A stretch of DNA of 64,000 nucleotides, from positions 62,001-126,000 of the forward strand of contig NZ_QVAI01000015.1 in assembly GCF_003427025.1 (NCBI RefSeq), given 5' to 3'. The notes under the pieces were generated by a model. It was not told where the DNA came from and ran no database searches. It was given only the letters and a program-made list of their open reading frames with translations. The stretch comes from Jiangella endophytica. GTDB lineage: Bacteria > Actinomycetota > Actinomycetes > Jiangellales > Jiangellaceae. This document shows positions 25,371 through 52,805 of the stretch, piece by piece; positions within the stretch are counted from its first letter, which is position 1; each line of letters starts with the position of its first letter. A program made the translations under genes and the position numbers.

Positions 25371-25401
25371 GAATGTCCCTTCTGGACGATCGGCAGGTCA
25401 G

Positions 25402-27327: not shown

Positions 27328-27361
27328 GGGCTCCTCCGTTCGGTTCGCTCGGTCGCTGACA

Positions 27362-29023
27362 TCAACTCGGAACACCGCCCGCCTTCTGCAGCTCCTCCTC
27401 GTACTCGGCGCGGATCTGGTCTCCGCCGCCGCTGCGCCAGTCGCTCACCAGGGAGTCGAGGTCGCCGATCGGCTTGCGGCCCTGGATGATCTCGTTCACG
27501 CCGTCGTTGAAGGCCTTGTCGATGGCGGCGTTCTTGCTGGCGTTGGTGTTCGAGAACAGCCCCACGGTCGGGTCGGCCGCGCCGTTCGGCAGCACCCTCG
27601 ACTGGAACTCGTGCTGGTAGTCGGCGTCCTGCGGGCGACCCGGCATGAAGATCGGCGACGGGGAGTCGGCCAGGTAGCGGATCGGGAGCACTGTGTTCGC
27701 CGTTCCCTCGGCCGTCAGCACGGGGTTGCCGTCGGCGTCGAGGGTGTGGTCGCGCCCCTCCTCGCCGTAGAAGCGGTAGGTGTACTCCTGCGTGCCGAAC
27801 GGCGCCGCCAGCCAGTTGAGGACCCGGAGCAGCATCGTCAGGCGCTCGTCGTCCTGCTGCTTGATCGCCGCGAAGGAGTACTGCCCGGGGCCGTACGCCC
27901 ACGGCGCCAGCTCTGAACCGTCGCGGGTGTAGACCGGCAGGAGGCCGAGCTCGAACTCGGGGTTGTCCTTGTTGTCCACGATGTACTGGGTCCAGCCGCC
28001 GTAGCCGTCGGAGGCGTTGACGGCGCAGGCGCCGGCGTTGAACAGCTGCTTGAACGGCTGCGTGTCGGAGAACGCGTCCGGGTGGACCACGCCCGCCTCC
28101 CACAGCTCGGTCATGTCGCTGACGGTCTGCCTGAACTCTTCGGTCTCGTAACTCCTGGTGAAACTGCCGCCCTCCTCGCGCCAGTTGTTCGGCTCGTTGT
28201 TCATCCGGCCGAGGAGCTTCATCGTCGGCAGGATCCGGCTGAGCGCGAACCGGCGCTGCCTGGAATCGGTCAGAGCCTTCATCGCCTCGGCGAACTCGTC
28301 GTAGCCCTTCAGCTCGACGGGGACGCCGTACTTCTCGAACAGGTCCTGCCGGATGAAGTGGTAGCTGTGGGTGCGGCCGCGCGGGATCGGGACGCCGTAG
28401 ATGCCGCCGTTGTAGACGGTGGACCGCCACGAGTCGGTGGAGAGGTTCGCCAGGTTCGGATAGTCCAGGACCGCATCGCCGGACAGGTGGTCCGAGAGGT
28501 TGCTGAACTGGGCCCCGAGCAGCTGAGGCAGGTTCGGGATCCGGTTCGGCGGCGGGCTCATCATCACCAGGTCCGGCAGGTCGCCGCCGGCGATCACCGT
28601 CTGGAACACCGTCGGGTAGTCGGCGTTCGGCACCATCCGCAGGTCGAGGTCGACCCCCAGTCGCTCGTTGAGGTCCGCCCAGAACGCGTTCCGGTCCGGG
28701 CCCGGCGGAATCGCGTAGAAGATGTTCGCCATGCCGGAGACGGTGCCTCCGTTGCCCGGTGTCTCCGCCACCGACCTCAGCTGCTCCGCCGGAAAGTTCC
28801 GGTACGCGTCGTCGACGCCGGTGTCGTTGCCGGGGAGATCCGGTTCGGCGCCGGCGAAGCGCCGGTAGGTCGGCAGCTCCGCGCCGCGGTTGGCGTCGGC
28901 CTGGTTGCTGCTCGGCGCACCGGAGTCGTTGCAGGCGGACAGCAGGCTCCCGGTGCCGGCCAGCAGCGCCAGGCTGCCGGCGCCGTGGAGGAAGCGGCGG
29001 CGGCCGAACGTGGGTGTGGACAT
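27362..29023 (-). CDS. ABC sugar-binding lipoprotein, LipO/YtcQ-type
   Basis: A 553-aa solute-binding protein. The N-terminus combines a twin-arginine motif (GRRRFLHGAG) with a lipobox (LLSAC), so it is probably Tat-exported and lipid-anchored. The long, Asp/Pro-rich mature protein with DLPDLVMMSP and YGGW segments fits the family serving LplB/LplC permeases that import oligosaccharides. It lies 78 bases after the second permease and is read in the same leftward operon, which makes it the ligand receptor of this importer. No matching ATPase gene is present; such systems often share an MsiK-type ATPase encoded elsewhere. Confidence 0.9.
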   Translation of the reverse strand: MSTPTFGRRRFLHGAGSLALLAGTGSLLSACNDSGAPSSNQADANRGAELPTYRRFAGAEPDLPGNDTGVDDAYRNFPAEQLRSVAETPGNGGTVSGMANIFYAIPPGPDRNAFWADLNERLGVDLDLRMVPNADYPTVFQTVIAGGDLPDLVMMSPPPNRIPNLPQLLGAQFSNLSDHLSGDAVLDYPNLANLSTDSWRSTVYNGGIYGVPIPRGRTHSYHFIRQDLFEKYGVPVELKGYDEFAEAMKALTDSRQRRFALSRILPTMKLLGRMNNEPNNWREEGGSFTRSYETEEFRQTVSDMTELWEAGVVHPDAFSDTQPFKQLFNAGACAVNASDGYGGWTQYIVDNKDNPEFELGLLPVYTRDGSELAPWAYGPGQYSFAAIKQQDDERLTMLLRVLNWLAAPFGTQEYTYRFYGEEGRDHTLDADGNPVLTAEGTANTVLPIRYLADSPSPIFMPGRPQDADYQHEFQSRVLPNGAADPTVGLFSNTNASKNAAIDKAFNDGVNEIIQGRKPIGDLDSLVSDWRSGGGDQIRAEYEEELQKAGGVPS

Positions 29024-29101
29024 GTCGTGGTCTCCGTTTTCTCTGCCAGGCCGGAGCCCGGATGCGTCGTTGCAGTTGGGACGGAAGTCGACGGGGACGA
29101 G

Positions 29102-30079
29102 TCAGCCCTTCACCGCGCCGATCATGACGCCCTTGGCGAAGTGCTTCTGGAGGAAGGGATAGACGATCAGGATCGGGACCGTCGCCATGACCAGGATCGC
29201 CATCTGAAGCGACAGCTGAGGGGGCAGCGCCTCGGTCGCACCGACCTGGTCACCGCCGATGGTGGTCTGGTTGACGACGAACGTGCGAAGGACGAGGGCC
29301 ATGGGCCATTTGTCCGCCGACTGGATGTAGAGCAGCGCGTTGAAGAACGCGTTCCAGTAGGCCACCGCGTAGAAGAGTCCGATCACCGCGAGCACCGCCT
29401 TCGACAGCGGCAGCACGATCTTGACCAGGACGGTGGCCGAGGACGCGCCGTCGATCGCCGCGGACTCGAACAGTTCCCTGGGCAGGTTCTGGAAGAACGC
29501 CCGCATCACGATCACGTTGAACCCGTTGACCATGACCGGCAGGATCAGCGACCAGTAGTTGTCCAGGAGCCCGAGTTCCTTGACCACCAGATAGTTGGGG
29601 ATCAGTCCGGGCGAGAACAACACCGAGCCGAGCACGAGCAGGAGCATCGGTTTGGCGCCCAGCGCCCCCGGCCGGGACAACCAGTAGGCGAGGCACGCGG
29701 TGACGGCCAGCGACAGCAGCGTTCCGACCACGGTCACCAGCACGGAGATGACCAGAGCGCGGGTGACCACGCCGCCGTTGAGGAGCGCTTCGTACGAGCT
29801 CACGGTGAAGCCGGTCGGCCACATCACCATGCCGCCCGCGTTGGCGTTGATCGTCTCCTCGTCGGCGAACGACGTCGCGATGACCGTCCAGAACGGCACG
29901 ATCACGAGCACGACCGAGACCAGCAGGGCGATGAACTTGATCGCCTGGACCAGCGGCTTGGGTGTCTCCATCCACACCGGCCGCTTGGCCGGCTTGCCCC
30001 GACGTCGAGCGGGGGCGCGATCACCGCGACGTGCGGCGCCGCGATCGCCGCGACGAGTGGTGGAATCGGTGACGGTCAT
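29102..30079 (-). CDS. ABC sugar transporter permease, LplC/YtcP-type
   Basis: A 325-aa permease with six helices after a long basic cytoplasmic N-terminus (residues 1-40, rich in Arg and Lys). The EAA-loop ELFESAAIDGASSATVLVKIVLPLS is near residue 220. The protein ends VYPFLQKHFAKGVMIGAVKG, the standard terminus of LplC/MalG-like permeases of this group. ATG 30079 overlaps the upstream permease's stop (ATGA). It forms the pore with the preceding gene's product. Confidence 0.93.
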   Translation of the reverse strand: MTVTDSTTRRGDRGAARRGDRAPARRRGKPAKRPVWMETPKPLVQAIKFIALLVSVVLVIVPFWTVIATSFADEETINANAGGMVMWPTGFTVSSYEALLNGGVVTRALVISVLVTVVGTLLSLAVTACLAYWLSRPGALGAKPMLLLVLGSVLFSPGLIPNYLVVKELGLLDNYWSLILPVMVNGFNVIVMRAFFQNLPRELFESAAIDGASSATVLVKIVLPLSKAVLAVIGLFYAVAYWNAFFNALLYIQSADKWPMALVLRTFVVNQTTIGGDQVGATEALPPQLSLQMAILVMATVPILIVYPFLQKHFAKGVMIGAVKG

Positions 30080-31020
30080 TTCTCGTACACCCCCCGTTCG
30101 CCGAACAGGTGGGCCAGCTTGTTCGCGCCGATCACCAGCACGATGCCGACCATCATCTTGAACAGGCCGACGGCCGACGCCATGCTCCAGTTGCCGCCGA
30201 TGATCCCGTTGTTGTAGACCCAGGTGTCGAGCACCTCGCTGGCCTCGAGGCCGACCGGTCCCTGCTGCAGGATGATCTGCTCGAAGCCGACCGACAGGCT
30301 GTTCCCGAGCCGCAGGATCAGCAGCAGGATGAACAGACCGCGGATCGACGGCAGCGTGATCGACCACATCCGGCGCAACGGCCCGGCGCCGTCGACCGCG
30401 GCCGCTTCGTACTGCTCCTGGTCGATCTGCGACAGTGCGGCCAGGAAGATGATCGTTCCCCAGCCGGTGTCCTTCCAGATGATCTGGCTGGTGAGCAAGG
30501 TCTTGAACAGGTCGGGCACGCCGATGATCTGGACCATGTCGAAGTCGTTCTGGATCAGGAAGGTGTTGAGCATCCCGGCGTCGCCCAGCATCTGCTGGAA
30601 CAGCGCGACGACGATCACCCACGACATGAAGTGCGGCAGGTAGAGGACCGACTGCAGGAGCCGCTTGAGCCGCTCGCCGGCGAGCGAGTTCAGCATCAGC
30701 GCGAACGCCAGCGGGATCGGGAACACCAGCACCGTCTGGATCAAGGTGAGGATGAGCGTGTTCGTCAGCGCGTTGAGGAACTGCGGGTTGCCGTCCCAGA
30801 GGAATGAGAAGTTCTGGAACCCCACCCATGACGACTGGCCGATGCCGAGATACGGCTGGTAGTCCTGGAACGCGATCACGTTGAAAGCCAGCGGGAAGTA
30901 CTGGAACAGGATCAACGCGATCCCGCCCGGCAGCCCGATCCCGACCAGCAGCAGGTCGGGCCGGACTCTCCGTCGCCGCGCAATGGTGTGGTCGTCAACG
31001 ACCTGCGACGCCATGATCAC
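30076..31020 (-). CDS. ABC sugar transporter permease, LplB/YteP-type
   Basis: A 314-aa permease with six helices and the EAA loop QYEAAAVDGAGPLRRMWSITLPS. The DYQPYLGI-SWVGFQNF region and ending GERGVYEK are typical of LplB-like proteins. Starts at 31020 (MIMASQ) or 31014 (MASQ) are possible. The gene begins 51 bases downstream of a strong hairpin following the sialidase gene, so its expression may be lower than, or separate from, that of the sialidase. Confidence 0.92.
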   Translation of the reverse strand: MIMASQVVDDHTIARRRRVRPDLLLVGIGLPGGIALILFQYFPLAFNVIAFQDYQPYLGIGQSSWVGFQNFSFLWDGNPQFLNALTNTLILTLIQTVLVFPIPLAFALMLNSLAGERLKRLLQSVLYLPHFMSWVIVVALFQQMLGDAGMLNTFLIQNDFDMVQIIGVPDLFKTLLTSQIIWKDTGWGTIIFLAALSQIDQEQYEAAAVDGAGPLRRMWSITLPSIRGLFILLLILRLGNSLSVGFEQIILQQGPVGLEASEVLDTWVYNNGIIGGNWSMASAVGLFKMMVGIVLVIGANKLAHLFGERGVYEK

Positions 31021-31111: not shown

Positions 31112-33028
31112 TCACCGTCGGACGATCTGGTTCATCGGGAGGTGGGTCACGGGGGTGGCGCCTTGGACCGAGTTGGTGGCGGCGAGGTCGGCGACCTGTT
31201 CGGCGTTCAGCGCGGTGTCGAACAGCCACACCTCGTCGACGCCGCCGACGAACTGGGCGTGGATGCCGTCGACGCGGGCGCCGACGCGGATCCCGGTGCG
31301 CGCGCCGGCGGAGACCGAGCCGGCCCCGATCGACGCGCCGGTGGCGGCCAGTGCACCGTCGACGTACAGAGCGACGCCGTCGACGTCGCGTACCAGCGCC
31401 ACGTGATGCCACTCGTCGTCCACGAAGTCGCCCGGTGCCGTCAGCGTCCGGGTGGACCCTCTGTCGGTCGAGAGCTGGGCCCGGATCACGTTGCCGTTGT
31501 TGGGCTCGACCTGGATCCACCACCGCGGCCCGAATCGGCCGTGCGCGTAGAGGATCGCCTGGTTGTTGGCGAGGTAGTCGGTGCGGAACCAGGCGGCGGC
31601 GGTGAACGGCTCGGTCCCGAAGGAGAGGTCGTCGTTGAGCGGCAATTCCGCGAAATCGCCGGCGAGCGACAAACCCTTGCCGAACGTGCCGGGCACGATC
31701 TTCGGGACGCCGCTGATCAGCGCGTCGTTGTCGCCGGCGGTGTCCGGTGTGACGGCCGGTGGGGGTGTGCGCAGGTCGAGACGGCGCTCCGGCACGCGCA
31801 CGAAGGTGATGTCGTGGTGGTAGGTCTGGTCGGGGTCACCGGGGTAGAGGCGTTCGCCGCTCTCGTAAAGAACGCCGATCTCCCGGTTGCCAGGACGATC
31901 GCCGAGCACAGCGACGTCCGAGTACGCCGCCGGTCCGTCATAGACCTCGTAGCTGGGCGTCCAGGTCTCGCCGTCGTCGAAGCTGGAGAACAGGGTCAGC
32001 TTCTCGCGCGAGGTCGGGTGGTTGGTGATGGAGAGGATCACCCGGTCGCGGCGGTTCCCGCTCGCGGCCGGCAGCCGGGTCACCGATCCCTGGATCATCG
32101 AGGTGACGACGCCGTTCACCGCGTCGTACGGCTCGTCGAACGTCTCGCCGCCGTCACTGCTGGTGGTGTCGACGCGCTGGCCCGGGGTGCTGCCCTGGTC
32201 GCGGGCGTTGAAGTAGAGACGGCCGTCGGCCAGTTCGACGACCGACACCTCGTTCGGCCGGAGGGCTTCGATGCCCTGCTCGTCGACCGCACCGACCCGC
32301 CAGGTCTGCCCGCCGTCGTCACTCAGCAGGGCGTGGCCGCCGGCGCCGGTGAGGTTGGTGCACTCCTGACCCGGATGCACATAGCTGTGCCGGCCGGGGA
32401 TGACCAGCCGCCCGGCGTGCTCGCCCTGGGTGAGCTGGATGCCGTGACCCGGCCCGGGGGCGATGTTCCGCCAGTGATCGGGTTTCACCTCGTCGGTGAT
32501 GTCCCTCGGCTCCGACCAGGTCGCGCCGTTGTCGTCGCTGTACAGGATGTTCGAGCGCACCGGCGCCCGGCCGCATTCGAGTTCGTCGCCGTCGTCCGCC
32601 GCGGTGCGGATGGTGTTGACGATGATCCGCCCGGTGGACGCGTCGACGACCGCGACGGGGTTGCTCCATCGGTCTGCGCCGGTGTCGGCGACCACCTGGA
32701 TCGGCCCCCAGGTGGTGCCCCGGTCGGTCGACCGCTTGAGCACGATGTCCATGTCGCCCCAGTCGTCCGGGTCGGTGACCCGGCCCTCGGCGAGCGCCAG
32801 GAGCGTGCCGTCGGAGGCCTCGACCAGCGTGGGGATCCGGAACGTGTGGTAGCCACCCTCGCCGCGGGTGAACACCGTGGTGCGGGTCGCCTCGGCGGCG
32901 GCGGCGTCGGCGGCATCGGCGTCGGTTGCCGAGGCTGGCGCACCGGCAAGGGCCGCGGCCGCCGCGAGCGCGATGGCGCCGGTATGGGCGACGAGCAGCC
33001 GCCGGCGTCGTGTTGTCGTCATTGACAT
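31112..33028 (-). CDS. secreted exo-alpha-sialidase (GH33-like) with C-terminal LamG domain, copy 2
   Basis: A 638-aa paralogue of the protein at 25402-27327 with the same order: signal peptide (to about residue 34), HTFRIPTLV, DWGDMDIVLKRS, Asp boxes (STDRGTTW, SDDNGATW, SDDGGQTW, SFDDGETW), AYSDV with the presumed Tyr nucleophile, then LamG. The first 190 residues differ from copy 1 at many positions; the rest is nearly the same. ATG 33028 follows GGAAGGA. It is the first gene of the leftward operon, directly behind the regulated promoter at 33.17-33.22 kb. Confidence 0.92.
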   Translation of the reverse strand: MSMTTTRRRRLLVAHTGAIALAAAAALAGAPASATDADAADAAAAEATRTTVFTRGEGGYHTFRIPTLVEASDGTLLALAEGRVTDPDDWGDMDIVLKRSTDRGTTWGPIQVVADTGADRWSNPVAVVDASTGRIIVNTIRTAADDGDELECGRAPVRSNILYSDDNGATWSEPRDITDEVKPDHWRNIAPGPGHGIQLTQGEHAGRLVIPGRHSYVHPGQECTNLTGAGGHALLSDDGGQTWRVGAVDEQGIEALRPNEVSVVELADGRLYFNARDQGSTPGQRVDTTSSDGGETFDEPYDAVNGVVTSMIQGSVTRLPAASGNRRDRVILSITNHPTSREKLTLFSSFDDGETWTPSYEVYDGPAAYSDVAVLGDRPGNREIGVLYESGERLYPGDPDQTYHHDITFVRVPERRLDLRTPPPAVTPDTAGDNDALISGVPKIVPGTFGKGLSLAGDFAELPLNDDLSFGTEPFTAAAWFRTDYLANNQAILYAHGRFGPRWWIQVEPNNGNVIRAQLSTDRGSTRTLTAPGDFVDDEWHHVALVRDVDGVALYVDGALAATGASIGAGSVSAGARTGIRVGARVDGIHAQFVGGVDEVWLFDTALNAEQVADLAATNSVQGATPVTHLPMNQIVRR

Positions 33029-33170
33029 GTGTTCCTTCCGCTCGGTCCTGCCGGCCGGCCGGGCATGGCCGCGCCGAACATCGAACTCAGGGAGGTCAAG
33101 CAGGTGACGCGCCGATCGAGCCGGATGAGCGAGGTTGTCCGGCTGCGATGACAGCGATTGTTACGTACGA

Positions 33171-33217
33171 TGTCCTACAGGTTTCTGAACCGTAGAGTGG
33201 CACCGTGGTGCTGTCAA
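33171..33217 (-). promoter_or_regulatory. leftward promoter P1 with GntR operator
   Basis: Read on the minus strand: -35 TTGACA (33217-33212), 17-base spacer, -10 TACGGT (33194-33189), 9 bases, then operator TGTAGGACA (33179-33171), a TGT-NNN-ACA palindrome matching the FadR/FCD-type TNGTNNNACNA pattern. The operator lies at the expected transcription start, so binding would block initiation. The same arrangement with the same spacings occurs at 38128-38174. It drives the sialidase/ABC/DUF2264 operon. Confidence 0.75.
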
Positions 33218-33233
33218 GGGGAGGCCAGAGCGA

Positions 33234-33941
33234 GTGACTGAACTGCCTGCGATCGATCCGCCGTTCCGACGGCTGCGACGGTCGCCGCCGTTGCATCGGA
33301 CCGTTCAGGACGAGATCCGGAGCTACGTCATCACCAACAAACTCCGCCCGGGCGATCCGCTGAAGCCGGAATCGGAGTTGGCGCGGTTGTTCGGTGTCAG
33401 CCGAACCTCGGTCCGCGAGGCGGTGAAGGCGCTGGAGTCGACCGGTGTGCTGGAGATCCGTCAGGGCAGCGGTACCTATGTACGCGATTTCTCGTTCGCA
33501 CCGCTACTCGATCATCTGCCGTACGGGCTCATGGTGGGCACGCGCGCGCTGCGCGATCTGCTCGCCCTGCGCAAAGCGCTGGAGTCGGCGATGATCGGCG
33601 ACGCGATGGCCGCACTGCGACCGGAGACCGTCGAGGCGCTGCGCGTGCTGCTGGCCGAGATGGGCGATCGCGCCGCGCGCGGCGAGGGTTACGCCGCCCA
33701 GGACCGCGAGTTCCACCAACTGCTCTTCGTCGACCTCGGCAACGAGATGCTGCTGCACCTGTTCGACCTGTTCTGGCAGGCCTTCCACCGCAGCTCCGAG
33801 GCGATTCCCGATCACGATCTGAAGGTCGGGCATCGCAGCCACGAGGTGGTCCTCGACGCGGTGCTCAGTGGCGACGTCGAGCGCGCACGTGACGCCATCC
33901 GGCAGCACTACGCCGACATCGAGGAGCGACTCGAGAGCTGA
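33234..33941 (+). CDS. GntR-family regulator, FadR/FCD subgroup (paralogue 1)
   Basis: A 235-aa regulator. Winged helix with ESELARLFGVSRTSVREAVKALESTG (about residues 46-71) and FCD ligand domain with REFHQLLF and HRSHEVVLDAVL carrying metal-binding His candidates. It is plainly paralogous to the protein at 37341-38075, sharing long stretches such as SFAPLLDHLPYGLM. GTG 33234 has GGGGAGG 9 bases upstream. Divergent from the sialidase operon; the shared gap contains operator TGTAGGACA, so it is the likely repressor of promoter P1. Confidence 0.92.
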   Translation: MTELPAIDPPFRRLRRSPPLHRTVQDEIRSYVITNKLRPGDPLKPESELARLFGVSRTSVREAVKALESTGVLEIRQGSGTYVRDFSFAPLLDHLPYGLMVGTRALRDLLALRKALESAMIGDAMAALRPETVEALRVLLAEMGDRAARGEGYAAQDREFHQLLFVDLGNEMLLHLFDLFWQAFHRSSEAIPDHDLKVGHRSHEVVLDAVLSGDVERARDAIRQHYADIEERLES

Positions 33942-34098
33942 CCCGGAGACCAGGAAGCGAGCCGCGCCGTTCGGCGCCGTCCACCCCGCCCACCAGGGTG
34001 GGAGCTCTACGACCTGCAAAGCGACCAGGGAGAGTTCCGAACGTGTATCCCGATCACACCGATGCCCGCACGCGCCTCAGCGATCCGGTGCTGACGCC

Positions 34099-35103
34099 AT
34101 GACCGACGTCGACCTCGACCCCATGGACCGCCCGGACCTGTGGCTCGGCGCGGTGAGCTGGGAGGCCGCCGGCCGCTGGCGCCAGCCGTGGCGGCTGCCA
34201 CCGCGCCTGGAGCGGCGCGCCTACGCTCCCGAGCTGTTCGAGAAGGCCATGGCGCCCGCCGGTGTCCGGGCGGCGTTGACCAGCGAGGCGCGCGAGCTCA
34301 CCGTCGAGCTCGACATCGCCACCGAGGACCCCTCGCCGCTCGATCTGCTCGTCGACGGTGAGCTGGCGCAGCGAGCGCGGCTGGTGGCGGGGGCGAACCA
34401 GGTCGCGTTCGGCCTCCCGGGGCGGCGGGCGGCGATCGAGCTGTGGCTCCCGCAGCACGGGCAGACGCGCCTGGCGGAGGTGCGGCTGCGGGATGCGGCG
34501 GGGGCCGTACTGCCGGCGGAACCGGCGCCACGACGCTGGCTCTGCTACGGAAGCTCGATCACGCAGTGCCGCCACGCATCCGGCCCGGCCGAGACCTGGC
34601 CGGCGCTCGTCGCCCGGGCGCGAGGGTGGGATCTGCTGTGCCTCGGGTTCGGTGGCCAGTGCCACCTCGACCCCGTCGCCGCGGACACCATCCGCGCCGA
34701 GCCGGCCGACCTGATCTCGCTGTGCCTCGGCATCAACGTCTACGGTGCCGGCACCTACAGCCGCCGCACCTGGCGGGGACGGGTCGCCGACTTCGTCGCC
34801 CGCGTCCGCGACGCCCACACGCGGACGCCGATCGTCGTCATGTCGCCCATCGCCAGCCCTGAGCGCGAGACGGTGACCAACGCGGCCGGAATGACCTTGG
34901 CGGACCTGCGGGAGGGGGTGCACGAGGTGGTCGCCGACCTGTCCGCCGACGACGGCGACCTGCACCTCGTCGACGGCACGTCCATCCTCCGGCCGTCAGA
35001 GGCGGACCTGCTCGCCGACGGGCTGCATCCCGGCCCGCACGGCTACCGGACCATGGCCACGCGGATCGGTGCGGCACTGGACCTCGCGCTCACGTCCGGC
35101 TGA
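34099..35103 (+). CDS. SGNH/GDSL-family esterase, cytoplasmic
   Basis: A 334-aa hydrolase with an N-terminal beta-rich domain (about residues 1-140) and a C-terminal SGNH domain. Blocks: CYGSSITQC (nucleophile Ser, block I), LGFGGQCHLD (block II Gly), SLCLGINVYG (block III Asn) and DGLHPGPHGY (block V Asp/His). No signal peptide, so it would deacylate an imported sugar. ATG 34099 lacks a clear ribosome-binding site; ATG 34123 is possible. It sits 157 bases after the GntR gene and its 3' end overlaps the convergent esterase by 14 bases. Confidence 0.85.
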   Translation: MTDVDLDPMDRPDLWLGAVSWEAAGRWRQPWRLPPRLERRAYAPELFEKAMAPAGVRAALTSEARELTVELDIATEDPSPLDLLVDGELAQRARLVAGANQVAFGLPGRRAAIELWLPQHGQTRLAEVRLRDAAGAVLPAEPAPRRWLCYGSSITQCRHASGPAETWPALVARARGWDLLCLGFGGQCHLDPVAADTIRAEPADLISLCLGINVYGAGTYSRRTWRGRVADFVARVRDAHTRTPIVVMSPIASPERETVTNAAGMTLADLREGVHEVVADLSADDGDLHLVDGTSILRPSEADLLADGLHPGPHGYRTMATRIGAALDLALTSG

Positions 35104-37318
35104 CGCTCAGCCGGATCCGGAAGCCGGATCCGGAAGCCGGATCGGCGGGCCGGTCCTGGCCGACGGGGAGCTGGAAGGCGAGCAGACCCATGCCGAGGGC
35201 GTCGACCACGCGTGGGCCGGCGCGGCGGTGGGCGAGGTACGCGACGGTGGCGTCGGCGGGTACCGGCCGGTCGAGTGTCAGCACCAGGCCGCGCCCCCGC
35301 TGCCAGCGCACGGACTCCACGACGGTGCCCGGCACCCGGAAGTCCGCGGCGGCGCCGTCCTCGACGACCAGGGGGCCGGCGGGGGAGCGGAGCGTGACCA
35401 CCACCTGGTTCGGGTCGTCATCGACCCGGTGCGCCGCTCTGGGGCCGGGCGGCGCGACCGTCGGAGCGCCCGGGCGGTACAGGTCGTCGAGGATCATGGC
35501 CGCGTTGTGCTCGCCGAGCGTGCGATAGCCGTCGACGTAGTCGAAGTGGCATCCGTCGTGGCCGTTGAGTCCGGTGGTCGACAGCACCCGGAGGTTGGCG
35601 ATGGTGTCCGGCAGCCGCCGCTGGGCGTCTCGCAGCGCCACCGGGAGCGCCTGATCGCAGGGGGAGTTCCGCACCTGATGGACGTAGACCGGCAGCTCCG
35701 CGCCGTAGTCCTCGCGCCAGTCGGCGACCAGTTCGGTGAACCCGGCGACGTGCGCCGCCGCGTCGTCGCGGTCCGCCTCACCCTGGTACCAGAGCATGAG
35801 GTCGATGGCGTCCGGCCCGGTCAGGCCGGCCCGGGTGAGGCGCTGCAGCAGCATCCCGTAGCTGGTGCCACCATCGGCGGGGTCGCTGTCGTCACGGGCG
35901 AAGTAGCTGATCGGCTGGCCGCCACGTGCCCCGTTGACGATGGCGATCGGGATGCCGAGCTCGTTCGACATCAGCTGTCCCATCCGGACCGCCCATTGGC
36001 CGATCGCCGCGACCCGCTGGATGTTGTCGCCCATGGCGTACGTCCATCCGCCGACGGCGGCGGCCAGCCGCGGGTTGTTGTTGTTGGACGTGCCGAACGT
36101 GCGCACCCACCGAGACCGATCCGCCTCCGACGAGGTCGAGTTCGGCTGCCGGCCGGCCTGCGCGTTGGACTGGCCCTGCACGACGATGACGTCGCCGGCG
36201 ACGACGTCGACCGCGCGAGCGACGCGGGTGCCGGCGCCGTCGCCGGTGAGCGCGACGAGCTCCAGATCGGTCGACGTCAGTGCCACCGGCAGCGTGACGC
36301 TGAACGAGAACCGCGGCGCCGCCGGTGACACGTCGGCCCGCTGGATCGTCTGACGGCCGTCGCGCGTGGTCCGCAGCTCGACCGTGGTGACGGACGGGTC
36401 GGTCGCCACTCCGCTGACCGGCACCGACACGCTGGTGGCGGTCCGGCCCGGCCGGGGGACCAGTTGCCGCGACGCCGGGGCGGCGTCGACTCGGACCAGG
36501 GAGGGCCGGGCGTAGACGCTGAGCCGCCGGGCGGTGTAGTCGCCGGCGTTCTGGGCGGAGGTCCAGTCGGGATCGTCGCCCGGGCCGACGCCGATGCCGA
36601 CGTCCATCGTCTGGGGGCCGGCGGTGGTGAAGGCGTTGACGGCCAGCACCGGCGTCGCGGTGGGGGCGTCCGCGGCTCGCGGGCCACGGGCGTCGCCGGC
36701 GTCGGCGAACGCGTGGACCTGGAAGGAGCCGTACCCGTTCGCCCACAGGACCGCGTCGTCGGCGTCGCGGACGGTCCCGGACGCACCCGGAATCTGCCCG
36801 GAGCCCGTCGCGTCGTACTGATTCGGCCACATCTCGACCCAGCCGGAGCCGCCGTCGGCCCGCTGGACGCCGGGCACGTTGGAGGCGACCGTCAGGTCGT
36901 CGACGAACTGGTGCCGCGACTGCTCCATGCGGGTCGGAAGGCCGAGGTCCGCGGGTTCGCCGCTCAGCGCCTCCATCGACGCCCACGCCCAGTTCGTGCC
37001 GGTCTCGGTGGTGAGCTCCAGGCAGTAACCGACCCGGTCGACGCCGCCGGTGAGGCCGGCCGCGTCGTCGAACGCATACGGCGGCGTCGTGTCGCGCCAG
37101 TTCGCGGCGGTGGGCAGATCGAGGACGCGTACCAGCTGGTAGCCGGCGGCCTCGGCGTCGCAGGAGGTCGTCCACGCCTCGGCGGATGGTCCGGCGGCGA
37201 CGCCGTCGGAGACGGACATGGTCGCGGCGGCCACTGCCAGTGCGGTGCACCCGCCGGCCAGCCGGCCGGCCCGGCGGACCCGGGCGGGGGAGTGGGCGAA
37301 GGTCCGGTCGGCTGGCAC
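35090..37318 (-). CDS. secreted sialate-O-acetylesterase-like protein (SASA domain)
   Basis: A 742-aa exported protein with a signal peptide ending around residue 40 (LAGGCTALAVAAATMSVSDGVAA). After an N-terminal beta-rich part (to about 390) the SASA/SGNH hydrolase domain appears: DVIVVQGQSNAQAG (nucleophile Ser), IVNGARGGQPIS and LMLWYQGEADRDD. C-terminal beta domains follow. It would remove O-acetyl groups from glycan sugars, helping the sialidases. GTG 37318 has a perfect AGGAGG 6 bases upstream; a longer upstream frame is rejected. A 13-base repeat alters the last codons. Confidence 0.86.
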   Translation of the reverse strand: MPADRTFAHSPARVRRAGRLAGGCTALAVAAATMSVSDGVAAGPSAEAWTTSCDAEAAGYQLVRVLDLPTAANWRDTTPPYAFDDAAGLTGGVDRVGYCLELTTETGTNWAWASMEALSGEPADLGLPTRMEQSRHQFVDDLTVASNVPGVQRADGGSGWVEMWPNQYDATGSGQIPGASGTVRDADDAVLWANGYGSFQVHAFADAGDARGPRAADAPTATPVLAVNAFTTAGPQTMDVGIGVGPGDDPDWTSAQNAGDYTARRLSVYARPSLVRVDAAPASRQLVPRPGRTATSVSVPVSGVATDPSVTTVELRTTRDGRQTIQRADVSPAAPRFSFSVTLPVALTSTDLELVALTGDGAGTRVARAVDVVAGDVIVVQGQSNAQAGRQPNSTSSEADRSRWVRTFGTSNNNNPRLAAAVGGWTYAMGDNIQRVAAIGQWAVRMGQLMSNELGIPIAIVNGARGGQPISYFARDDSDPADGGTSYGMLLQRLTRAGLTGPDAIDLMLWYQGEADRDDAAAHVAGFTELVADWREDYGAELPVYVHQVRNSPCDQALPVALRDAQRRLPDTIANLRVLSTTGLNGHDGCHFDYVDGYRTLGEHNAAMILDDLYRPGAPTVAPPGPRAAHRVDDDPNQVVVTLRSPAGPLVVEDGAAADFRVPGTVVESVRWQRGRGLVLTLDRPVPADATVAYLAHRRAGPRVVDALGMGLLAFQLPVGQDRPADPASGSGFRIRLSVSRT
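35109..35145. repeat. 13-bp tandem repeat (2.8 copies) in esterase 3' end
   Basis: AGCCGGATCCGGA occurs twice in tandem (35109-35121, 35122-35134), followed by a partial copy AGCCGGATCGG (35135-35145). It encodes the last residues of the esterase (GSGFRIRLS). Because 13 is not a multiple of 3, any change in copy number shifts the reading frame of the C-terminus. Confidence 0.85.
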
Positions 37319-37340
37319 TGGTGACCTCCTGAGGGTGGAA

Positions 37341-38075
37341 CTACGGGGTGGGCTCGGCCGCCGGGTCCTCGGTGAGTTTGGACTCGATGCCGATGTAGTG
37401 GTCGTGGACCGCTTCTCGTGCCTGGTCGGGGTCGCCGCTGAGAATCGCGTCGAGGATGGCGGCGTGGCCGCGGTAGGCGTCCATCGGCGTGCGGCCGCGC
37501 GCCGGCGGAGCCGCCGCATGAAAGGCCAGCCAGAACAGGTCGAACAACCGCAGCAGCATCGTGTTGTCGAGATCGCGGAACAGCAGCTGGTGGAACCGCC
37601 GGTCCTGCTCGGGGAAGCCCTCTCCTCGTTCGGCGAGCTCCCGCATCGTCTCCAGGGTCTCCCGCAGCGCGGCGATGCTCTCCGGCGTCATGGCCCGCAT
37701 CGCTTCGGGGATGAGTGCGGACTCGAGGGTCTTGCGCAGCGCGGCGAGCTCGCGCAGGGCGCGCTGGCCCTGCATGAGGCCGTACGGGAGGTGGTCGATC
37801 AGCGGGGCGAAGGAGAAGTCGCGGATGTAGACGCCACTGCCGCGGCGCGTCTCGAGGACGCCGGTGGACTCGAGCGCCTTGACCGCCTCGCGCACCGAGT
37901 TGCGGCTGACCCCGAACAGTCTGGCCAGCTCGGACTCCGACCTGAGTGGATCGCCGGGGCGCAGGCCCTCCTTGAGGATGAAGTCCCTGATCTCGTGCTG
38001 CACGATCCGGTGCAGCGGAGCCCTGTCGTCCAACCGCCGGAAGTCCGGCTCCGTGTCGTCCTGGTGAGTCGCCAC
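37341..38075 (-). CDS. GntR-family regulator, FadR/FCD subgroup (paralogue 2)
   Basis: A 244-aa paralogue of the regulator at 33234. Winged helix with ESELARLFGVSRNSVREAVKALESTG, and FCD domain with DRRFHQLLF and YRGHAAILDAIL. GTG 38075 follows GGGAGG at about 13 bases and aligns with the start of paralogue 1; upstream in-frame extension to 38207 would run through the operators and is rejected. Divergent from the dipeptide-type ABC operon. Operators TGTAGGATA and TGTAGGACA in the gap indicate autoregulation and control of that operon. Confidence 0.9.
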   Translation of the reverse strand: MATHQDDTEPDFRRLDDRAPLHRIVQHEIRDFILKEGLRPGDPLRSESELARLFGVSRNSVREAVKALESTGVLETRRGSGVYIRDFSFAPLIDHLPYGLMQGQRALRELAALRKTLESALIPEAMRAMTPESIAALRETLETMRELAERGEGFPEQDRRFHQLLFRDLDNTMLLRLFDLFWLAFHAAAPPARGRTPMDAYRGHAAILDAILSGDPDQAREAVHDHYIGIESKLTEDPAAEPTP

Positions 38076-38107
38076 GCTCTGGCTCGACCTCCCTCTCGGT
38101 GCCGATC

Positions 38108-38174
38108 TGTAGGATATCTTGCGACCCTTGACACGATCAAGCGCCGACTCTACGGTTGCGAAAACTGTAGGACA
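38108..38174. promoter_or_regulatory. divergent promoter region with two GntR operators (rightward P2, leftward gntR promoter)
   Basis: Rightward P2: -35 TTGACA (38128-38133), 17 bases, -10 TACGGT (38151-38156), 9 bases, operator TGTAGGACA (38166-38174). Leftward for gntR: -35 TTGATC (38140-38135), 18 bases, -10 TATCCT (38116-38111) lying inside the second operator TGTAGGATA (38108-38116). P2 has the same hexamers and spacings as P1 at 33.2 kb. Both promoters would be shut when the regulator binds. Confidence 0.75.
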
Positions 38175-38218
38175 TCTTGCAGTAATGCACTCCGCGTGGA
38201 GCGACAAGGAGGTCGTCG

Positions 38219-40351
38219 GTGTCTGGTGGAGCCCTCGATGGCGCGACCCGGGGCGGGACCGTCCACAGTGCTCTCACGCCCGCGGCGGATCGCGGCGCCG
38301 GCCAGCCGGTCCTGAGCCTGCGCGACCTGGTCGTGGAGTTCACCACGCCGGCCGGCGTCGTCCGTGCGGTCGACGGGATGAGCTACGACGTCTTCGGCGG
38401 CGAGACGCTCAGCGTCGTGGGGGAGACCGGCTCGGGCAAGAGCGTGTCGGTGCTCGCCGCGCTGGGGCTGCTGAGGACGCCGAACCTGCGCCGGGTGTCC
38501 GGGCAGGCCCTGCTCGGTGGCGTCGACCTGCTCACCCTGCCCGAGGTGGAACTGCGACGACGCCTCGGGCGCGACGTCGCCATGATCTTCCAGGACGCGA
38601 TCTCCGCGCTGAACCCCGTCCAGCGGGTCGGCCACCAGATCGCCGAGGCGCTGCGGGTGCACGACCGGGCCCTGACCGCCGCGGCGGCGCGGGTCCGGGT
38701 CGTGGAACTGCTCGACATGGTCGGCGTGCCGCACGCGGACGCCCGCTACGACCAGTACCCGCACCAGTTCTCCGGCGGCATGTGCCAGCGGGTGATGATC
38801 GCGATGGCGATCGCCAACCGCCCGAAGGTGCTGATCGCCGACGAGCCCACGACGGCGCTGGACGTCAGTGTGCAGGCGCAGATCCTGGATCTGCTGCGGG
38901 TGGCGCGCGAGGAGACCGGCGCCGGGGTGGTGCTGATCACCCACGACCTGGGCGTGGTCGCCGAGACCGCCGACCGCGTCAGCGTGACCTACGGCGGCCG
39001 GATCGTGGAGTCCGGCGAAGTCACCCAGATCTTCACCCGGCCGCGGCACCCCTACACCGCCGCACTGCTCGGCGCACTGCCGCGGCTCGACACCGCGGCC
39101 CGGCGGCTGCTCCCGATCCCCGGCCAGCCGCCGGACCCGAGCGAACTGCCGCCGGGCTGCGCCTTCGCGCCCCGGTGCCCGATCTCGCAGGGCCGGTCGG
39201 TGTGCACCGAGCAGCGGCCCGAGGCGCGGCCCGGCCCGGACGGCGCCGGCGTGAGCGCCTGCCACTTCCCGGACGAGGCGGCGGCGCTGCTCACCCGGGC
39301 GGACAGCCCGGGCGACACCACGGCATCCGTGAGCGGCGGCGACGCGGCCGCGGGCTCGCCCGTGCTCGACGTCCAGCAGGCCGTGGCGCGGTTCCCCGTG
39401 CGCTCCGGCGTGCTCGCCCGCCCGTCGGCCTGGGTGCATGCGGTGGACGGGGTGTCGCTTCGGGTCCCGGCCGGGCGCACGCTCGGCCTCGTCGGGGAGT
39501 CCGGCTGCGGCAAGACCACGCTCGCGCGGCTGGTCCTGCGTCTCGTCGAACCGACCGGCGGCCGGATCCTGGTCGACGGCCGTGACGTCGGCGCGGCGGG
39601 CCGGTCCCAGCTGCGCCAGATCCGGCGCAGTGCGCAGATGGTGTTCCAGGACCCGTACGCCTCGCTGAACCCCCGGCTGAGCGTCGGTGACAACGTCGCC
39701 GAGCCGTTGCGGCTGCAAGGCCTGCCCTACGCCAAGCGCAGGAGCCAGGTCGCCGACCTGTTCGCGCGGGTGGGTCTGCGCACCGAGCACGCGGACCGGC
39801 TGCCGTCGGAGTTCTCCGGCGGCCAGCGCCAGCGAGTCGCGATCGCGCGTGCGCTGGCGTCCCGGCCGGGGCTGCTGATCCTCGACGAGCCGGTGTCGGC
39901 GCTGGACGTGTCCGTGCAGGCGCAGGTGCTGAACCTGCTCGCCGACCTGCAGCGCGAATCCGCGATGGCGTACCTGTTCGTCAGCCACGATCTCGCCGTG
40001 ATCCGGCAGGTCGCCGACGAGGTGGCGGTGATGTACCTGGGCCGGATCGTGGAGTCCGGGTCGGTGCGGCGGGTGTACGACGACCCGCGCCACCCGTACA
40101 CGCGGGCACTGCTGGCGTCGGTGCCGGTACCCGATCCCGTCGGCCGGGCCGATCGGCGGCGGGTGCCGCTGGGCGGCGACGTCCCGAGCCCGGTGGACCC
40201 GCCGTCGGGCTGCCGGTTCCGGACCCGCTGCCCGATCGCGGTCGCCATCTGCGCCGAGAAGGAACCTCCGCTGCGGCTCGTGGCCGGCGGACACACCGCC
40301 TGTCACCTCGCCGACGAGACGGCCGACCTGACGCCGGAGGCGGCCCGATGA
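38219..40351 (+). CDS. fused dipeptide/oligopeptide-type ABC ATPase (DppD-DppF)
   Basis: A 710-aa protein with two complete ATPase halves. Half 1: Walker A GETGSGKS, signature FSGGMCQR, Walker [13 protein letters not shown]. Half 2: Walker A GESGCGKT, signature FSGGQRQR, Walker [13 protein letters not shown]. Each ends in the Cys-containing oligopeptide-transporter tail ([18 protein letters not shown]) that in some members binds an Fe-S cluster. Despite the name, such systems also import sialic acid and oligosaccharides. GTG 38219 has AAGGAGG 6 bases upstream. First gene under P2. Confidence 0.94.
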
Positions 40352-41256
40352 GCGCGGCGCCGAACCCGCCCACCTCCGCGCCGGCAGGGCGCCGGCGACT
40401 GGCGGCCCTGCGCCGGTTCGCCCGGTCCCGGTCGGCCGTCGTCGGGGCGGCAGGGCTGCTGCTGCTGGTCGCGGTCGCGCTGCTGGCGCCGCTGGTCGCC
40501 CCGTTCGACCCGGCCGCGCAGGACGGCGAGCCGCTGCTCGGCCCGTCCGGCGCGCACCTGCTCGGCACCGACCAGCTCGGCCGCGACATCCTGTCGCGCC
40601 TGATCTACGGCGCACGCGCCTCGCTCATCGCCGCCGCCGGTGCCGCCGCGGTGGGCGCGGGCATCGGGGTGCCGCTGGGCCTGCTCGCCGGTTACCTGGG
40701 ACGGTGGGTCGACGCGGTCGCGATGCGGCTGGTCGATCTGTTGCTCGCGGTGCCGGGGATCCTGCTCGCACTGGTCATGATCGTGGTGCTGGGCCCCGGC
40801 CGGTTCAACCTGATCCTCGCCATCGGCATCGGTGCGGTGCCGGAGTTCGCCCGGCTCACCCGGGTGGCCACGCTCGGCATCCGCGACCGCGACTTCGTGC
40901 TGGCAGCACGCGGCATGGGCGCGAGCACGCCGGACACGATGCTGCGCACGGTGCTGCCGAACGTGCTCGGCCCGATCGTCATCCAGGTCGTCGTCACGGC
41001 ATCGATGGCGGTCGTGGTCGAGGCGGGCCTGGCCTTCCTCGGCCTGGGCACCCCGCCGCCGGCGCCGTCGTGGGGCGGCATGCTCCAGGACGCGCGCTCG
41101 TACCTGTACCAGAGCCCGAGCTACGGGCTGTTCCCCGGGCTGTGCCTGGTCGCCACCGTGTTCTGCCTCGACCGGATCGGGCGAGGCCTGCAACTGGCGG
41201 TGAGCGGCGGCAGCCAGCACCTGGGGACACGCGTCACGAGCGGAGGTGCGGTCTAG
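40348..41256 (+). CDS. ABC permease, DppC/OppC type
   Basis: A 302-aa permease with the N-terminal OppC_N helix, an extracytoplasmic LLGTDQLGRDILSRLIYGAR segment and five further helices. The EAA loop is AARGMGASTPDTMLRTVLPNV. The ending PSWGGMLQDARSYL-YGLFPGL is typical of DppC. ATG 40348 overlaps the ATPase stop. It pairs with the DppB-type protein encoded next. Confidence 0.93.
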   Translation: MSAAPNPPTSAPAGRRRLAALRRFARSRSAVVGAAGLLLLVAVALLAPLVAPFDPAAQDGEPLLGPSGAHLLGTDQLGRDILSRLIYGARASLIAAAGAAAVGAGIGVPLGLLAGYLGRWVDAVAMRLVDLLLAVPGILLALVMIVVLGPGRFNLILAIGIGAVPEFARLTRVATLGIRDRDFVLAARGMGASTPDTMLRTVLPNVLGPIVIQVVVTASMAVVVEAGLAFLGLGTPPPAPSWGGMLQDARSYLYQSPSYGLFPGLCLVATVFCLDRIGRGLQLAVSGGSQHLGTRVTSGGAV

Positions 41257-42204
<948 letters not shown>

Positions 42205-42239
42205 GCTCCACCCCGTCCTGATCCTCGGGAGGCATCACC

Positions 42240-43793
42240 ATGCCCGTTTCGCCGATTCAGTCCCGCCTGATCGCCCGCCGCACGCTGTTGCGGGCCGGGT
42301 TCCTCGCGGCCGGCGCGATCGCCGGCGCGCCCCTGCTCAGCGCCTGTGGTTCCGGGAGCGGCGAGAGCACGGGTGGCGACGGGACCGGCAAGATCACGCT
42401 CGGCACGACGAAGATCATGCAGTTCGATCCCTATCTCACCAACACCGACATCCACATCCACTCCTTCTACACGTACCTGCTCGACTACCCGCCGGACGGC
42501 ACGTACGAGCCCACCCCGGCCGGGGCCGAGAAGTGGGAGTTCGCGCCCGACCACGCGTCGGTGACCATCACGCTCCGCCAGGCGACCTTCCATTCGGGGG
42601 AACCGGTCACCTCCGCCGACGTCGTGGCCGGTGTCCAGCGGGCCCAGGATCCGGACGCCGCGTTCACCCTCGCCCAGCCGACCGCGTTCATCGCCGCGGC
42701 GACGGCGGTCGACGAGCGGACCGTGCGGCTGGACTTCAAGCAACCCACCCCCGAGTCGCTGGTACTCGACTGGATGTTCGCCTTTCCGCTGGTGCTGGCG
42801 GCCAGCAACACCCCGGCGCAGCTGGAGCACGAGCCGGCCGGCTCCGGCCCGTTCCGGCTGGCCGACTTCCGGCGCGACCAGCGCCTCGTGCTGGAGAAGA
42901 ACCCCGACTTCTGGGACTCCGGCATGCCGTACCTGGACGAGGTGGAGTACCGCTTCTTCACCGACGAGGACGCGTTGATCGCCGGGCTGGAATCGGGCTC
43001 GGTCGACGGAGCCGCCTACATCGGGTTCCGCCACGCCGACCGGCTGCGCGACCGGTTCACGCTGGTGGAGGGCAACGGCCGGATGTCGCTGTTCTTCATG
43101 AACGCCGTCATCCCGCCCTTCGACAACAAGCTCCTGCGACAGGCGCTCGCGCTGGCGATCGATCGCGACCGCATCATCGAGCAGGTCAACTTCGGCATCG
43201 GCGACCCGGTCTACACGGCCTTCATGCCGTCCTCGCCCGCGTTCGACCCGGCCTACCTCGACACGGGCGCGTTCGACCTGGACGCCGCCGCGGCCCTGCT
43301 GGAGCAGTCCGGCGACGTGCGCAACGCCGTCGCGGGCGTGACGTCGGGGAGCCCGTCGGTCCAGTCGCTCGAGATCATCCAGGCGGACCTGAAGAAGATC
43401 GGTTTCGACCTGGAGATCGCCCCGCAGGAGGAGGCGGCCTACCTCGAGGCGCTGTTCGCCAGCGAGCTGCAGTGCACCGTCGCCTTCCAGCCGAACAACC
43501 TGCAGAGCCCGTCGCTGATCGCCCGCGGCCGGCAGATGCTGACCACCGAGGCGAACACCACGTTCGGCCCCAACGTGCCGCCGGCCTACGTCGCCGCCGT
43601 GGCCGCGGCCGGATCGGCGATGACGCCCGAGGACCAGGAGGCCGCCTACGCCGCGCTGAACAGCACCCTCGCCGACGAGGCGTGGGCGATCGGCATCTCG
43701 ACCGTGCCGTCCCTGTTCGCGCTGGACAAGCGCATCACCGGGCTGGTCACCGACTCCCGCGACTTCGTCGACCTCACCCAGACCAAGGGCTGA
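42240..43793 (+). CDS. ABC substrate-binding lipoprotein, DppA/OppA (SBP_bac_5) family
   Basis: A 517-aa binding protein. The N-terminus shows a twin-arginine motif (ARRTLLRAGF) and lipobox LLSAC, suggesting Tat export and lipid anchoring. SBP_bac_5 features include WEFAPDHASVTITLRQATFHSGEPVTSADVV split by domain boundaries, and ALAIDRDRIIEQVNFG. It is shorter than many peptide-binding DppA proteins. Neighbouring lyase, sialidases and sulfatase suggest a sugar-acid or small oligosaccharide ligand. ATG 42240 has GGGAGG upstream. Confidence 0.9.
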   Translation: MPVSPIQSRLIARRTLLRAGFLAAGAIAGAPLLSACGSGSGESTGGDGTGKITLGTTKIMQFDPYLTNTDIHIHSFYTYLLDYPPDGTYEPTPAGAEKWEFAPDHASVTITLRQATFHSGEPVTSADVVAGVQRAQDPDAAFTLAQPTAFIAAATAVDERTVRLDFKQPTPESLVLDWMFAFPLVLAASNTPAQLEHEPAGSGPFRLADFRRDQRLVLEKNPDFWDSGMPYLDEVEYRFFTDEDALIAGLESGSVDGAAYIGFRHADRLRDRFTLVEGNGRMSLFFMNAVIPPFDNKLLRQALALAIDRDRIIEQVNFGIGDPVYTAFMPSSPAFDPAYLDTGAFDLDAAAALLEQSGDVRNAVAGVTSGSPSVQSLEIIQADLKKIGFDLEIAPQEEAAYLEALFASELQCTVAFQPNNLQSPSLIARGRQMLTTEANTTFGPNVPPAYVAAVAAAGSAMTPEDQEAAYAALNSTLADEAWAIGISTVPSLFALDKRITGLVTDSRDFVDLTQTKG

Positions 43794-43846: not shown

Positions 43847-44779
43847 ATGACCGGGTTGCGCTACTCCACCGACGGCCCCGACATGGCGCTGCTCACCGCC
43901 GTGTTCACCCCCTTCACCGAGACCGGCGAGGTCGACCTCGACACCGTGGCGAAGCAGGCCGACGCCCTGCTCGGGTGGGGTTCCGCGGCGGCCTACATCG
44001 GGGGCACCGCCGGTGAGGGCGCCTCGCTCTCGACGGCGGAACGGATGGCGCTGGCCGAGCGGTGGTGCGAGGTCGCGGACGGACGGCTCGACGTCATCGT
44101 CCACGTGGGCCACGCCAGCCTCACCGAGGCCCGCCGGCTGGCGGCGCACGCCGAGTCCGTGGGCGCGCGGGCGATCTCGTCGGTCGCGCCCTACTTCCAC
44201 CGTCCGGACACGGTGGCGGCGCTGGTCGACGCCTGCGCCGCCATCGCCGACGCCGCGCCGACGCTGCCGTTCACCTATTACCACATCCCCTCGATGACCG
44301 GGGTCGACCTGCGGGCCAGCGACGTGCTCGTGGTCGCCCGGGAGAGGATCCCGACGTTCGCCGGCGTCAAGTTCGCCCACAACGACATGGTCGACCTGCA
44401 ACGCTGCCTGCACCTCGCCGGCGCGGACCACGAGGTGTTCGTCGGCGTCGCCAAGCTGGTGCTCGCCGCGTGGCAGTGGGGCGCGCGGGCGGCCATCGGG
44501 TCGGTGTACAACTTCGCCGGTCCGCTGTTCCGGCGGCTGCTCGAGCACGCCGCCCGTGGTGAGCTGGAGCAGGCACGAGCCGCCCAGCAGCTGGCGCAGC
44601 AGGTCATCGACACCGCGTCGCGGTACGGCGGGGAACTGGCCGGCTTCAAGGCGCTCGGCGCGCTGACCGGTGTCGACTGCGGCGGGTGCCGCCCGCCGCT
44701 GGTGTCGCCCGGCCCGGAGCAGCTGGCCGTGCTGCGCGCCGAGGTGACGGAGCTCGGCTTCCTCGGCGAGAGCCGCTGA
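43847..44779 (+). CDS. N-acetylneuraminate lyase / dihydrodipicolinate synthase family aldolase
   Basis: A 310-aa class I aldolase barrel. Carboxylate-binding loop GGTAGEGAS (residues 52-60), catalytic tyrosine in TYYHIPSMTGV (about Y145) and Schiff-base K175 in FAGVKFAHND. The YYHIP form is found in N-acetylneuraminate lyases more than in DapA, and the gene sits amid sialidases. It would cleave an imported sialic acid or similar 2-keto-3-deoxy acid to pyruvate and a sugar. No nanE or nanK is present nearby. ATG 43847 after GAAAGGA. Confidence 0.87.
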   Translation: MTGLRYSTDGPDMALLTAVFTPFTETGEVDLDTVAKQADALLGWGSAAAYIGGTAGEGASLSTAERMALAERWCEVADGRLDVIVHVGHASLTEARRLAAHAESVGARAISSVAPYFHRPDTVAALVDACAAIADAAPTLPFTYYHIPSMTGVDLRASDVLVVARERIPTFAGVKFAHNDMVDLQRCLHLAGADHEVFVGVAKLVLAAWQWGARAAIGSVYNFAGPLFRRLLEHAARGELEQARAAQQLAQQVIDTASRYGGELAGFKALGALTGVDCGGCRPPLVSPGPEQLAVLRAEVTELGFLGESR

Positions 44780-44781
44780 CG

Positions 44782-46236: not shown

Positions 46237-46264
46237 CTCTCGACGAAGAGAGGACCCGACGATC

Positions 46265-46888
46265 GTGACCACTCATCGTTCGACCCGATTCCGTGCGGCG
46301 CTGGTCGCCGCCGTCGTGAGCGCCACGGCGCTGACCTCGCTGCAGAGTGCCCCCGCGTCGTCCGGCGCCGCCACCGTGGACCCGTTCGAGGACCGCACCA
46401 CCGTCCTGTTCAGCAGCCCGAACGTGCCGTCCGGGTGCTACCGCATCCCGGCGATCGTCCAGGCGGCGGACGGCTCGCTGCTGGCCTTCGCCGAGCGACG
46501 GATGCACACCTGTGCCGACAAGTCCCACATCCGGACAGTGGTCCGGCGGCTGCCGCCGGGCACCACCGAGTGGCTGCCGGAGCAGACGGTGGTCCGTGGC
46601 GAGGCCGGCGATCCGCAGGCCCCGGCGACGCGTGGAAACCCCGGCCCCGCGGTGTACCGGCGGCTGCCGGGCGCACCGCCGACCGACGCGCCGGACGGCC
46701 CGATCGTCCTGCTGGGCACGCAGCTGGACGGCGCGGACCGGCTGCACGGCGCGCTGGACGAGTTCCGCGTGTACGACCGGGCGCTCACCGGCGCCGAGCT
46801 GACCCGGCTGCGCACCCGCAACGCCAACGGCATCCCGGGCCTCACCGCCCACCTGCCGATGAACGCCGTCGTCCCGCCCGCCACCTGA
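46265..46888 (+). pseudogene. internally deleted sialidase (in-frame mini-sialidase)
   Basis: A 207-aa frame with intact start (GTG 46265), signal peptide and stop. Residues 40-150 match the first propeller blade of the sialidases (GCYRIPAIVQAADGSLLAFAERR, then RGNPGPAVYRRL and IVLLGT). The sequence then jumps to the last LamG strands (LHGALDEFRVYDRALTGAEL to LTAHLPMNAV). Roughly 400 residues seen in relatives are missing, including all Asp boxes and the YSDL tyrosine. It cannot be an active sialidase. It might persist as a secreted binding fragment, or be a decaying gene. Confidence 0.8.
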
Positions 46889-46902
46889 GAGAGGTGCTCA
46901 CG

Positions 46903-52772: not shown

Positions 52773-52805
52773 CGCACTGCCTCATCCATCGAGAGAAGGA
52801 GCACG

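Follow-up and report, generated by a model that had tools for sequence, protein, structure and literature searches.

Background

In Corynebacterium glutamicum, the paralogous regulators GntR1 and GntR2, which likely arose by gene duplication, control several operons through one TNGTNNNACNA-type site (PMC2230225). Divergons of the FadR subfamily with single and with double sites have been catalogued (PMC4494728). The sialoregulon of Escherichia coli is controlled by NanR, an FCD-type GntR repressor that binds GGTATA direct repeats and whose operator lies downstream of the polymerase site; it comprises several operons for using sialic acid (PMC8012715).

The locus described here lies in a window of 64,000 nucleotides from Jiangella endophytica (the whole stretch that was analysed), in which two promoters, P1 reading leftward and P2 reading rightward, each precede an operon. 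Like C. glutamicum, it has a paralogous GntR pair, one common site type and several operons. However, the C. glutamicum regulators act on gluconate genes, share 78% identity and are not encoded head-to-head as in Jiangella, and their regulon was proven by gel shifts and mutants, whereas the Jiangella regulon is a prediction from sequence. As in the FadR-subfamily divergons, gntR and target operon diverge, the operator has a GT-N3-AC core, and sites occur singly (P1) or as a pair with nearly constant spacing (57-59 bp, P2). Functionally, the Jiangella regulators have an analogue in NanR, an FCD GntR protein with its operator downstream of the polymerase site and with several operons for sialic acid use. 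Against the NanR profile NF003011 (NCBIfam, cutoff 260), GntR1 and GntR2 of Jiangella scored 81.7 and 94.8 bits, and no GGTATA repeats were found in the P1 and P2 promoter regions. The two clusters for sialic-acid-like sugars are thus a new example of a well-known type of bacterial sugar regulon and bring no new mechanism. In the literature searched, neither the clade motif TTGTAGGAYATC nor its Dpp-lyase operon was found named, and searches for exact TGTAGGACA, TTGTAGGATA and TATCCTACAA returned unrelated papers or no exact match.

Structure of the P1 and P2 promoters

P1 lies on the minus strand, with a -35 box TTGACA at 33212..33217, a -10 box TACGGT at 33189..33194 and a predicted GntR operator, TGTAGGACA, at 33171..33179. 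P2 lies on the plus strand and has, as assigned by comparison of homologous promoters, the -35 box TTGACA at 38128..38133 and the -10 box TACGGT at 38151..38156, followed by the predicted operator O1, again TGTAGGACA, at 38166..38174. With the start sites placed seven bases past TACGGT (near 33182 for P1 and 38163 for P2), as inferred from the position of the -10 box, the P1 operator and O1 would each cover about +4 to +12. The pattern TTGACA-N17-TACGGT-N9-TGTAGGACA was matched exactly at 33171-33217 (minus strand, TTGACAGCACCACGGTGCCACTCTACGGTTCAGAAACCTGTAGGACA) and 38128-38174 (plus strand, TTGACACGATCAAGCGCCGACTCTACGGTTGCGAAAACTGTAGGACA), so that the hexamers, spacer lengths and operator position which a sequence-only reading had called identical in P1 and P2 agree letter for letter. 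That reading counted two operators; there are three, as it missed O2 (TGTAGGATA, predicted, plus strand, 38108..38116), 58 bp from O1. TGTAGGACA fits the palindromic core GT-N3-AC (TKGT/ACMA) of the FadR subfamily as GT-AGG-AC, and the right arm of O2 is degenerate (ATA). Comparison of 21 homologous promoters suggests that P1 and P2 are genuine promoters, each with a GntR operator of the FadR type.

Both promoters stand back-to-back with a gntR gene, and gntR1 and gntR2 point away from the operons. O2 overlaps a likely gntR2 promoter on the minus strand, TTGATC-N18-TATCCT, with TATCCT as the -10 box. A possible gntR1 promoter, ATGACA-N17-TGTCCT with its -10 box TGTCCT on the plus strand, overlaps the operator of P1. 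The segment TTGACACGATCAAG at 38128-38141 is an inverted repeat in which the P2 -35 box overlaps the likely gntR2 -35 box (TTGATC, other strand); given this overlap, polymerase could hardly use both simultaneously.

The full promoter-operator motif was matched in none of 100 dinucleotide shuffles of the window. The sequence-only reading had proposed a genome-wide search for the operator near TACGGT. When up to three mismatches to TACGGT-N9-TGTAGGACA were allowed in a scan of the 7.85 Mb genome, the only exact matches were P1 and P2, and none with one mismatch was found. The best further match, C45:372541, was dropped as it had no TTGACA at the right distance. Exact TGTAGGAYATCNTR sites numbered three genome-wide, all in the window (P1, P2 and 38108-38116 upstream of P2). 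With up to two mismatches there were 177 sites versus 158 for the reversed control, and with so little excess no large regulon is claimed. A generic sigma-70 scan detected neither P1 nor P2 because TACGGT matches TATAAT at only 3/6 positions, and an Rfam search over 33000-38300 found no RNA element.

The regulator genes

The gntR1 gene (33234..33941, plus strand) and its paralogue gntR2 (37341..38075, minus strand) encode FadR-subfamily regulators, with the GntR and FCD domains PF00392 and PF07729 above the Pfam cutoff in both proteins. GntR1 and GntR2 were 62% identical over 226 residues, and their helix-turn-helix regions and recognition helices were nearly identical. In place of T58 of GntR1, a threonine, GntR2 and almost all relatives have asparagine. 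The position equivalent to residue 58 has been reported to correlate with the central operator bases (PMC4494728), and by this residue the operator affinities of GntR1 and GntR2 may differ.

The count of two paralogous GntR genes in the sequence-only reading was too narrow. A third close paralogue, GntR3, is encoded on contig C29 of the same genome with the same operator; no divergent target gene was seen there, and the operator is retained beside a -35 box degraded to TTGGCT. A more distant paralogue on contig C56 carries TTGTAGGATA. This gene (L067, G000:C56:248935-249609; 43%) lies downstream of an HPr-like gene, and in many Jiangellaceae genomes TTGTAGGATAA covers the likely -10 box of the L067 paralogue, which may connect the same operator with sugar-phosphotransferase control. 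Within the window, a further FCD GntR gene (62534-63193), 39% identical to GntR1, adjoins a sialidase-like gene. As no TGTAGGAYA was found upstream of it, its product probably reads a different operator.

Gene content of the two operons

The first gene of the P1 operon (31112..33028, minus strand) encodes by domain search a GH33-type sialidase with a laminin-G domain. It aligned with the Micromonospora (M. viridifaciens) sialidase 1eur (E 2e-35), including the catalytic residues: the FRIP arginine, two other arginines, Glu and Tyr. The rest of the operon (23520..31020, minus strand) encodes two ABC permeases, a solute-binding protein, a second sialidase-like protein and a DUF2264 protein.

The P2 operon (plus strand) begins with a transport part at 38219..43793, comprising fused Dpp/Opp ATPases, two permeases and a solute-binding protein. 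It is followed at 43847..44779 by an N-acetylneuraminate-lyase-like aldolase of the DHDPS family, for which N-acetylneuraminate lyases were the nearest structures, at E about 1e-51, against 4e-26 for dihydrodipicolinate synthases. The remainder (44776..54734) starts with a sulfatase and ends with a sialidase (52806-54734), and includes a GH106-like (rhamnosidase-like) protein at 46904-50628 and a protein of unassigned family at about 50625-52540. Because the gaps are short and no intrinsic terminator was found, we infer cotranscription through 54734. Between the sulfatase and GH106-like genes, a short ORF (46265-46888, 207 aa) has a sialidase-like N-terminus, CYRIPAIV, and is possibly a truncated sialidase. 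From the DUF2264 gene at 23520 to the sialidase at 54734, the gene map agrees with the 31 kb span given by the sequence-only reading. An SGNH/GDSL esterase gene (34099..35103, plus strand) lies 3' of gntR1 and a gene for a SASA-type (sialate O-acetylesterase-like) esterase (35090..37309, minus strand) lies 3' of gntR2.

Origin and conservation of the promoter match

The sequence-only reading had considered the match unlikely by chance. The shuffles bear this out, but the argument is incomplete, since the sites are homologous parts of paralogous gntR cassettes and chance is therefore the wrong null model; the proper one is common descent with purifying selection. P1 and P2 were identical at 21/21 motif positions, 9/17 positions of the 17-base spacer and 6/9 of the nine-base gap, while identity in the flanks was near random (7/40 bases upstream, 18/63 downstream). 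The motif is fixed although its flanks have drifted, so selection maintains it. In a phylogenetic tree, GntR2 fell in a well-supported clade with proteins from Jiangella, Phytohabitans, Actinophytocola, Streptosporangium and Nonomuraea, and GntR1 fell outside it; the GntR1 and GntR3-type proteins were poorly separated at the deep nodes. As the GntR2 clade spans several families and excludes GntR1, the GntR1/GntR2 split is old. On these comparisons, the common layout is attributed to a gntR-promoter cassette whose two copies stem from an ancient duplication and have been maintained by selection. Recent gene conversion, by which one promoter was copied onto the other and the shared function is not yet under selection, would account for the exact identity of the 21 motif bases. 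It is extremely improbable, being already contradicted by the divergence of spacer and flanks, by the P1-type promoters of the related genome G008, which carry a spacer of their own, and by the age of the split.

Among 21 homologous promoters, TTGACA was retained in 19, and T1, A2 and T6 of the -10 box were invariant in all; the variants (TACGGT, TACAGT, TAAGGT, TACCGT and TACGTT) changed at positions 3-5 only. These promoter windows were anchored on the operator and the automatic parse required T1, A2 and T6, and by eye the same -10 box was seen in every row. The equal spacing of P1 and P2 stressed in the sequence-only reading does not extend to the homologues, in which the spacer varies from 17 to 19 bases and the gap between -10 box and operator from 7 to 9. 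The two-operator layout of P2 is kept in Jiangella, Phytohabitans, Streptosporangium, Actinophytocola and Nonomuraea, and the O1-O2 spacing is conserved at 57-59 bp in four actinobacterial families.

Loss of gntR1 and gntR2 in related genomes

Two operons of G008, one sialidase/ABC and one sialidase/DUF2264, are preceded by P1-type promoters in which the same boxes and operator are present. Beside each promoter lies a gntR1 copy that is a pseudogene, with a stop codon, frameshifts and most of the FCD part missing. Genes for GntR2 and two GntR3-type proteins are retained. Operators left intact without a working gntR1, in a genome that kept the paralogues, are best explained by the paralogues acting in trans, and the operator in P1-type promoters thus appears to be read by them. 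Of the evidence for one regulon, this is the strongest. The loss of gntR1 may also be too recent for operator decay. This pseudogene provides, in one species, a natural test of operator sharing by paralogous repressors. The promoters at L081:5303 and L082:6928 of G008 are near-identical, and each lies beside a truncated gntR1 pseudogene, which suggests that the segment of promoter and pseudogene was recently duplicated and so came to precede a second sialidase operon.

In another genome, G006, P2 survives as a relic: its promoter and O1 are preserved, O2 is degraded, and neither gntR2 nor the Dpp genes remain. Decay of O2 together with loss of gntR2 is as expected if O2 serves gntR2.

Proposed regulation and alternatives

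The P1 and P2 operons probably form one local regulon in which GntR1 and GntR2 repress both and a sialic-acid-like compound is the inducer. P1 and P2 would be housekeeping-type promoters in two paralogous gntR-promoter cassettes derived from an old duplication. A GntR dimer on TGTAGGACA would block RNA polymerase just past the start site, and autorepression would follow where the same site (P1) or the site 58 bp away (P2) covers the likely divergent gntR promoter. The DNA-reading helices of GntR1 and GntR2 are almost identical, and each protein most likely binds all three sites, which would join the sialidase/ABC and Dpp/lyase/sulfatase operons into one local regulon; GntR3 could also act on it. 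Repression would most likely be lifted when the FCD domain binds a sialic-acid-like or other 2-keto-3-deoxy sugar acid, which the sialidases would release and the lyase consume. Of the parts of this reading, shared operator recognition by the paralogues is very likely and action by repression only slightly less so, while a nonulosonic or related 2-keto-3-deoxy acid as the inducer has about an even chance. The rhamnosidase-like, DUF2264 and sulfatase genes of the operons are not needed for a pure sialic-acid pathway and point against that reading, and the true glycan could differ.

The single regulon of the sequence-only reading stands as the best reading, given the same operator at both operons and the pseudogenes of G008. 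The layout could instead stem from duplication, with each GntR controlling its own operon and the two circuits kept apart by ligand or by residue 58. Each operon does have its own adjacent gntR, the regulators share only 62% identity overall and differ (T/N) at the specificity position, and GntR2 has a second operator where GntR1 has none. However, separate circuits would not favour identical P1 operator and O1, and in G008 the P1-type operons persist without gntR1, which makes this arrangement unlikely. Less probable still, by a wide step, is that GntR activates or that the boxes serve mainly the gntR genes. GntR1/2 of C. glutamicum are presumed activators of ptsG, with a site centred at -60 (PMC2230225), and O2 lies upstream of the P2 -35 box; yet both O1 and the operator of P1 follow the -10 box, a position that suits a repressor. 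This reading would also fit poorly with G006, where P2 and O1 stayed when O2 decayed with gntR2 lost, and with GntR3, where the -35 box decayed beside no divergent target.

The one-regulon reading could be carried further, to three co-resident paralogous repressors reading one operator with diverged ligands, so that the promoters form a multi-signal gate. Taken jointly with spread of the cassette, this is doubtful, though somewhat less so than separate circuits. If true, two operons for different glycans would open only with the right combination of sugar acids, and further glycan operons would be recruited through copies of the cassette promoter that they carry.

Distribution of the operator

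The pattern TACGGTN{7,9}TGTAGGAYRTC gave 12 matches in 118 genomes, all of the same family, against one for the reversed control. One is the P2 relic of G006; the other eleven stand next to gntR genes of the clade or to gntR1 pseudogenes. The Jiangella locus illustrates the way in which a gntR-promoter cassette spreads within a genome and links carbohydrate operons.

Among 80 fetched relatives, TGTAGGAYA (or TGTAGGATG) was present upstream of gntR in 31, from four phyla and including Rhizobium, Shinella, Microvirga, Bosea, Trueperaceae and members of Chloroflexota; four others had one-mismatch versions. The remaining 45, more distant homologues, had no exact operator upstream of gntR; nearly all are from Streptomyces, at 35-42% identity, with the wing RHGFG or RHGYG versus RRGSG. 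The operator association is specific to this GntR clade. Relatives of 40-47% identity mostly adjoin DppABC genes, often with a lyase-family gene as well. A GntR clade of four phyla, found mostly beside Dpp-type transporter genes and often also beside a lyase-family gene, thereby acquires a predicted operator, TTGTAGGAYATC, and a likely function. Upstream of gntR in Microvirga lupini (L119), the near-tandem operator copies TGTAGGATA, TGTAGGCTA and TGCAGGATA were found, where elsewhere the operator is single or double.
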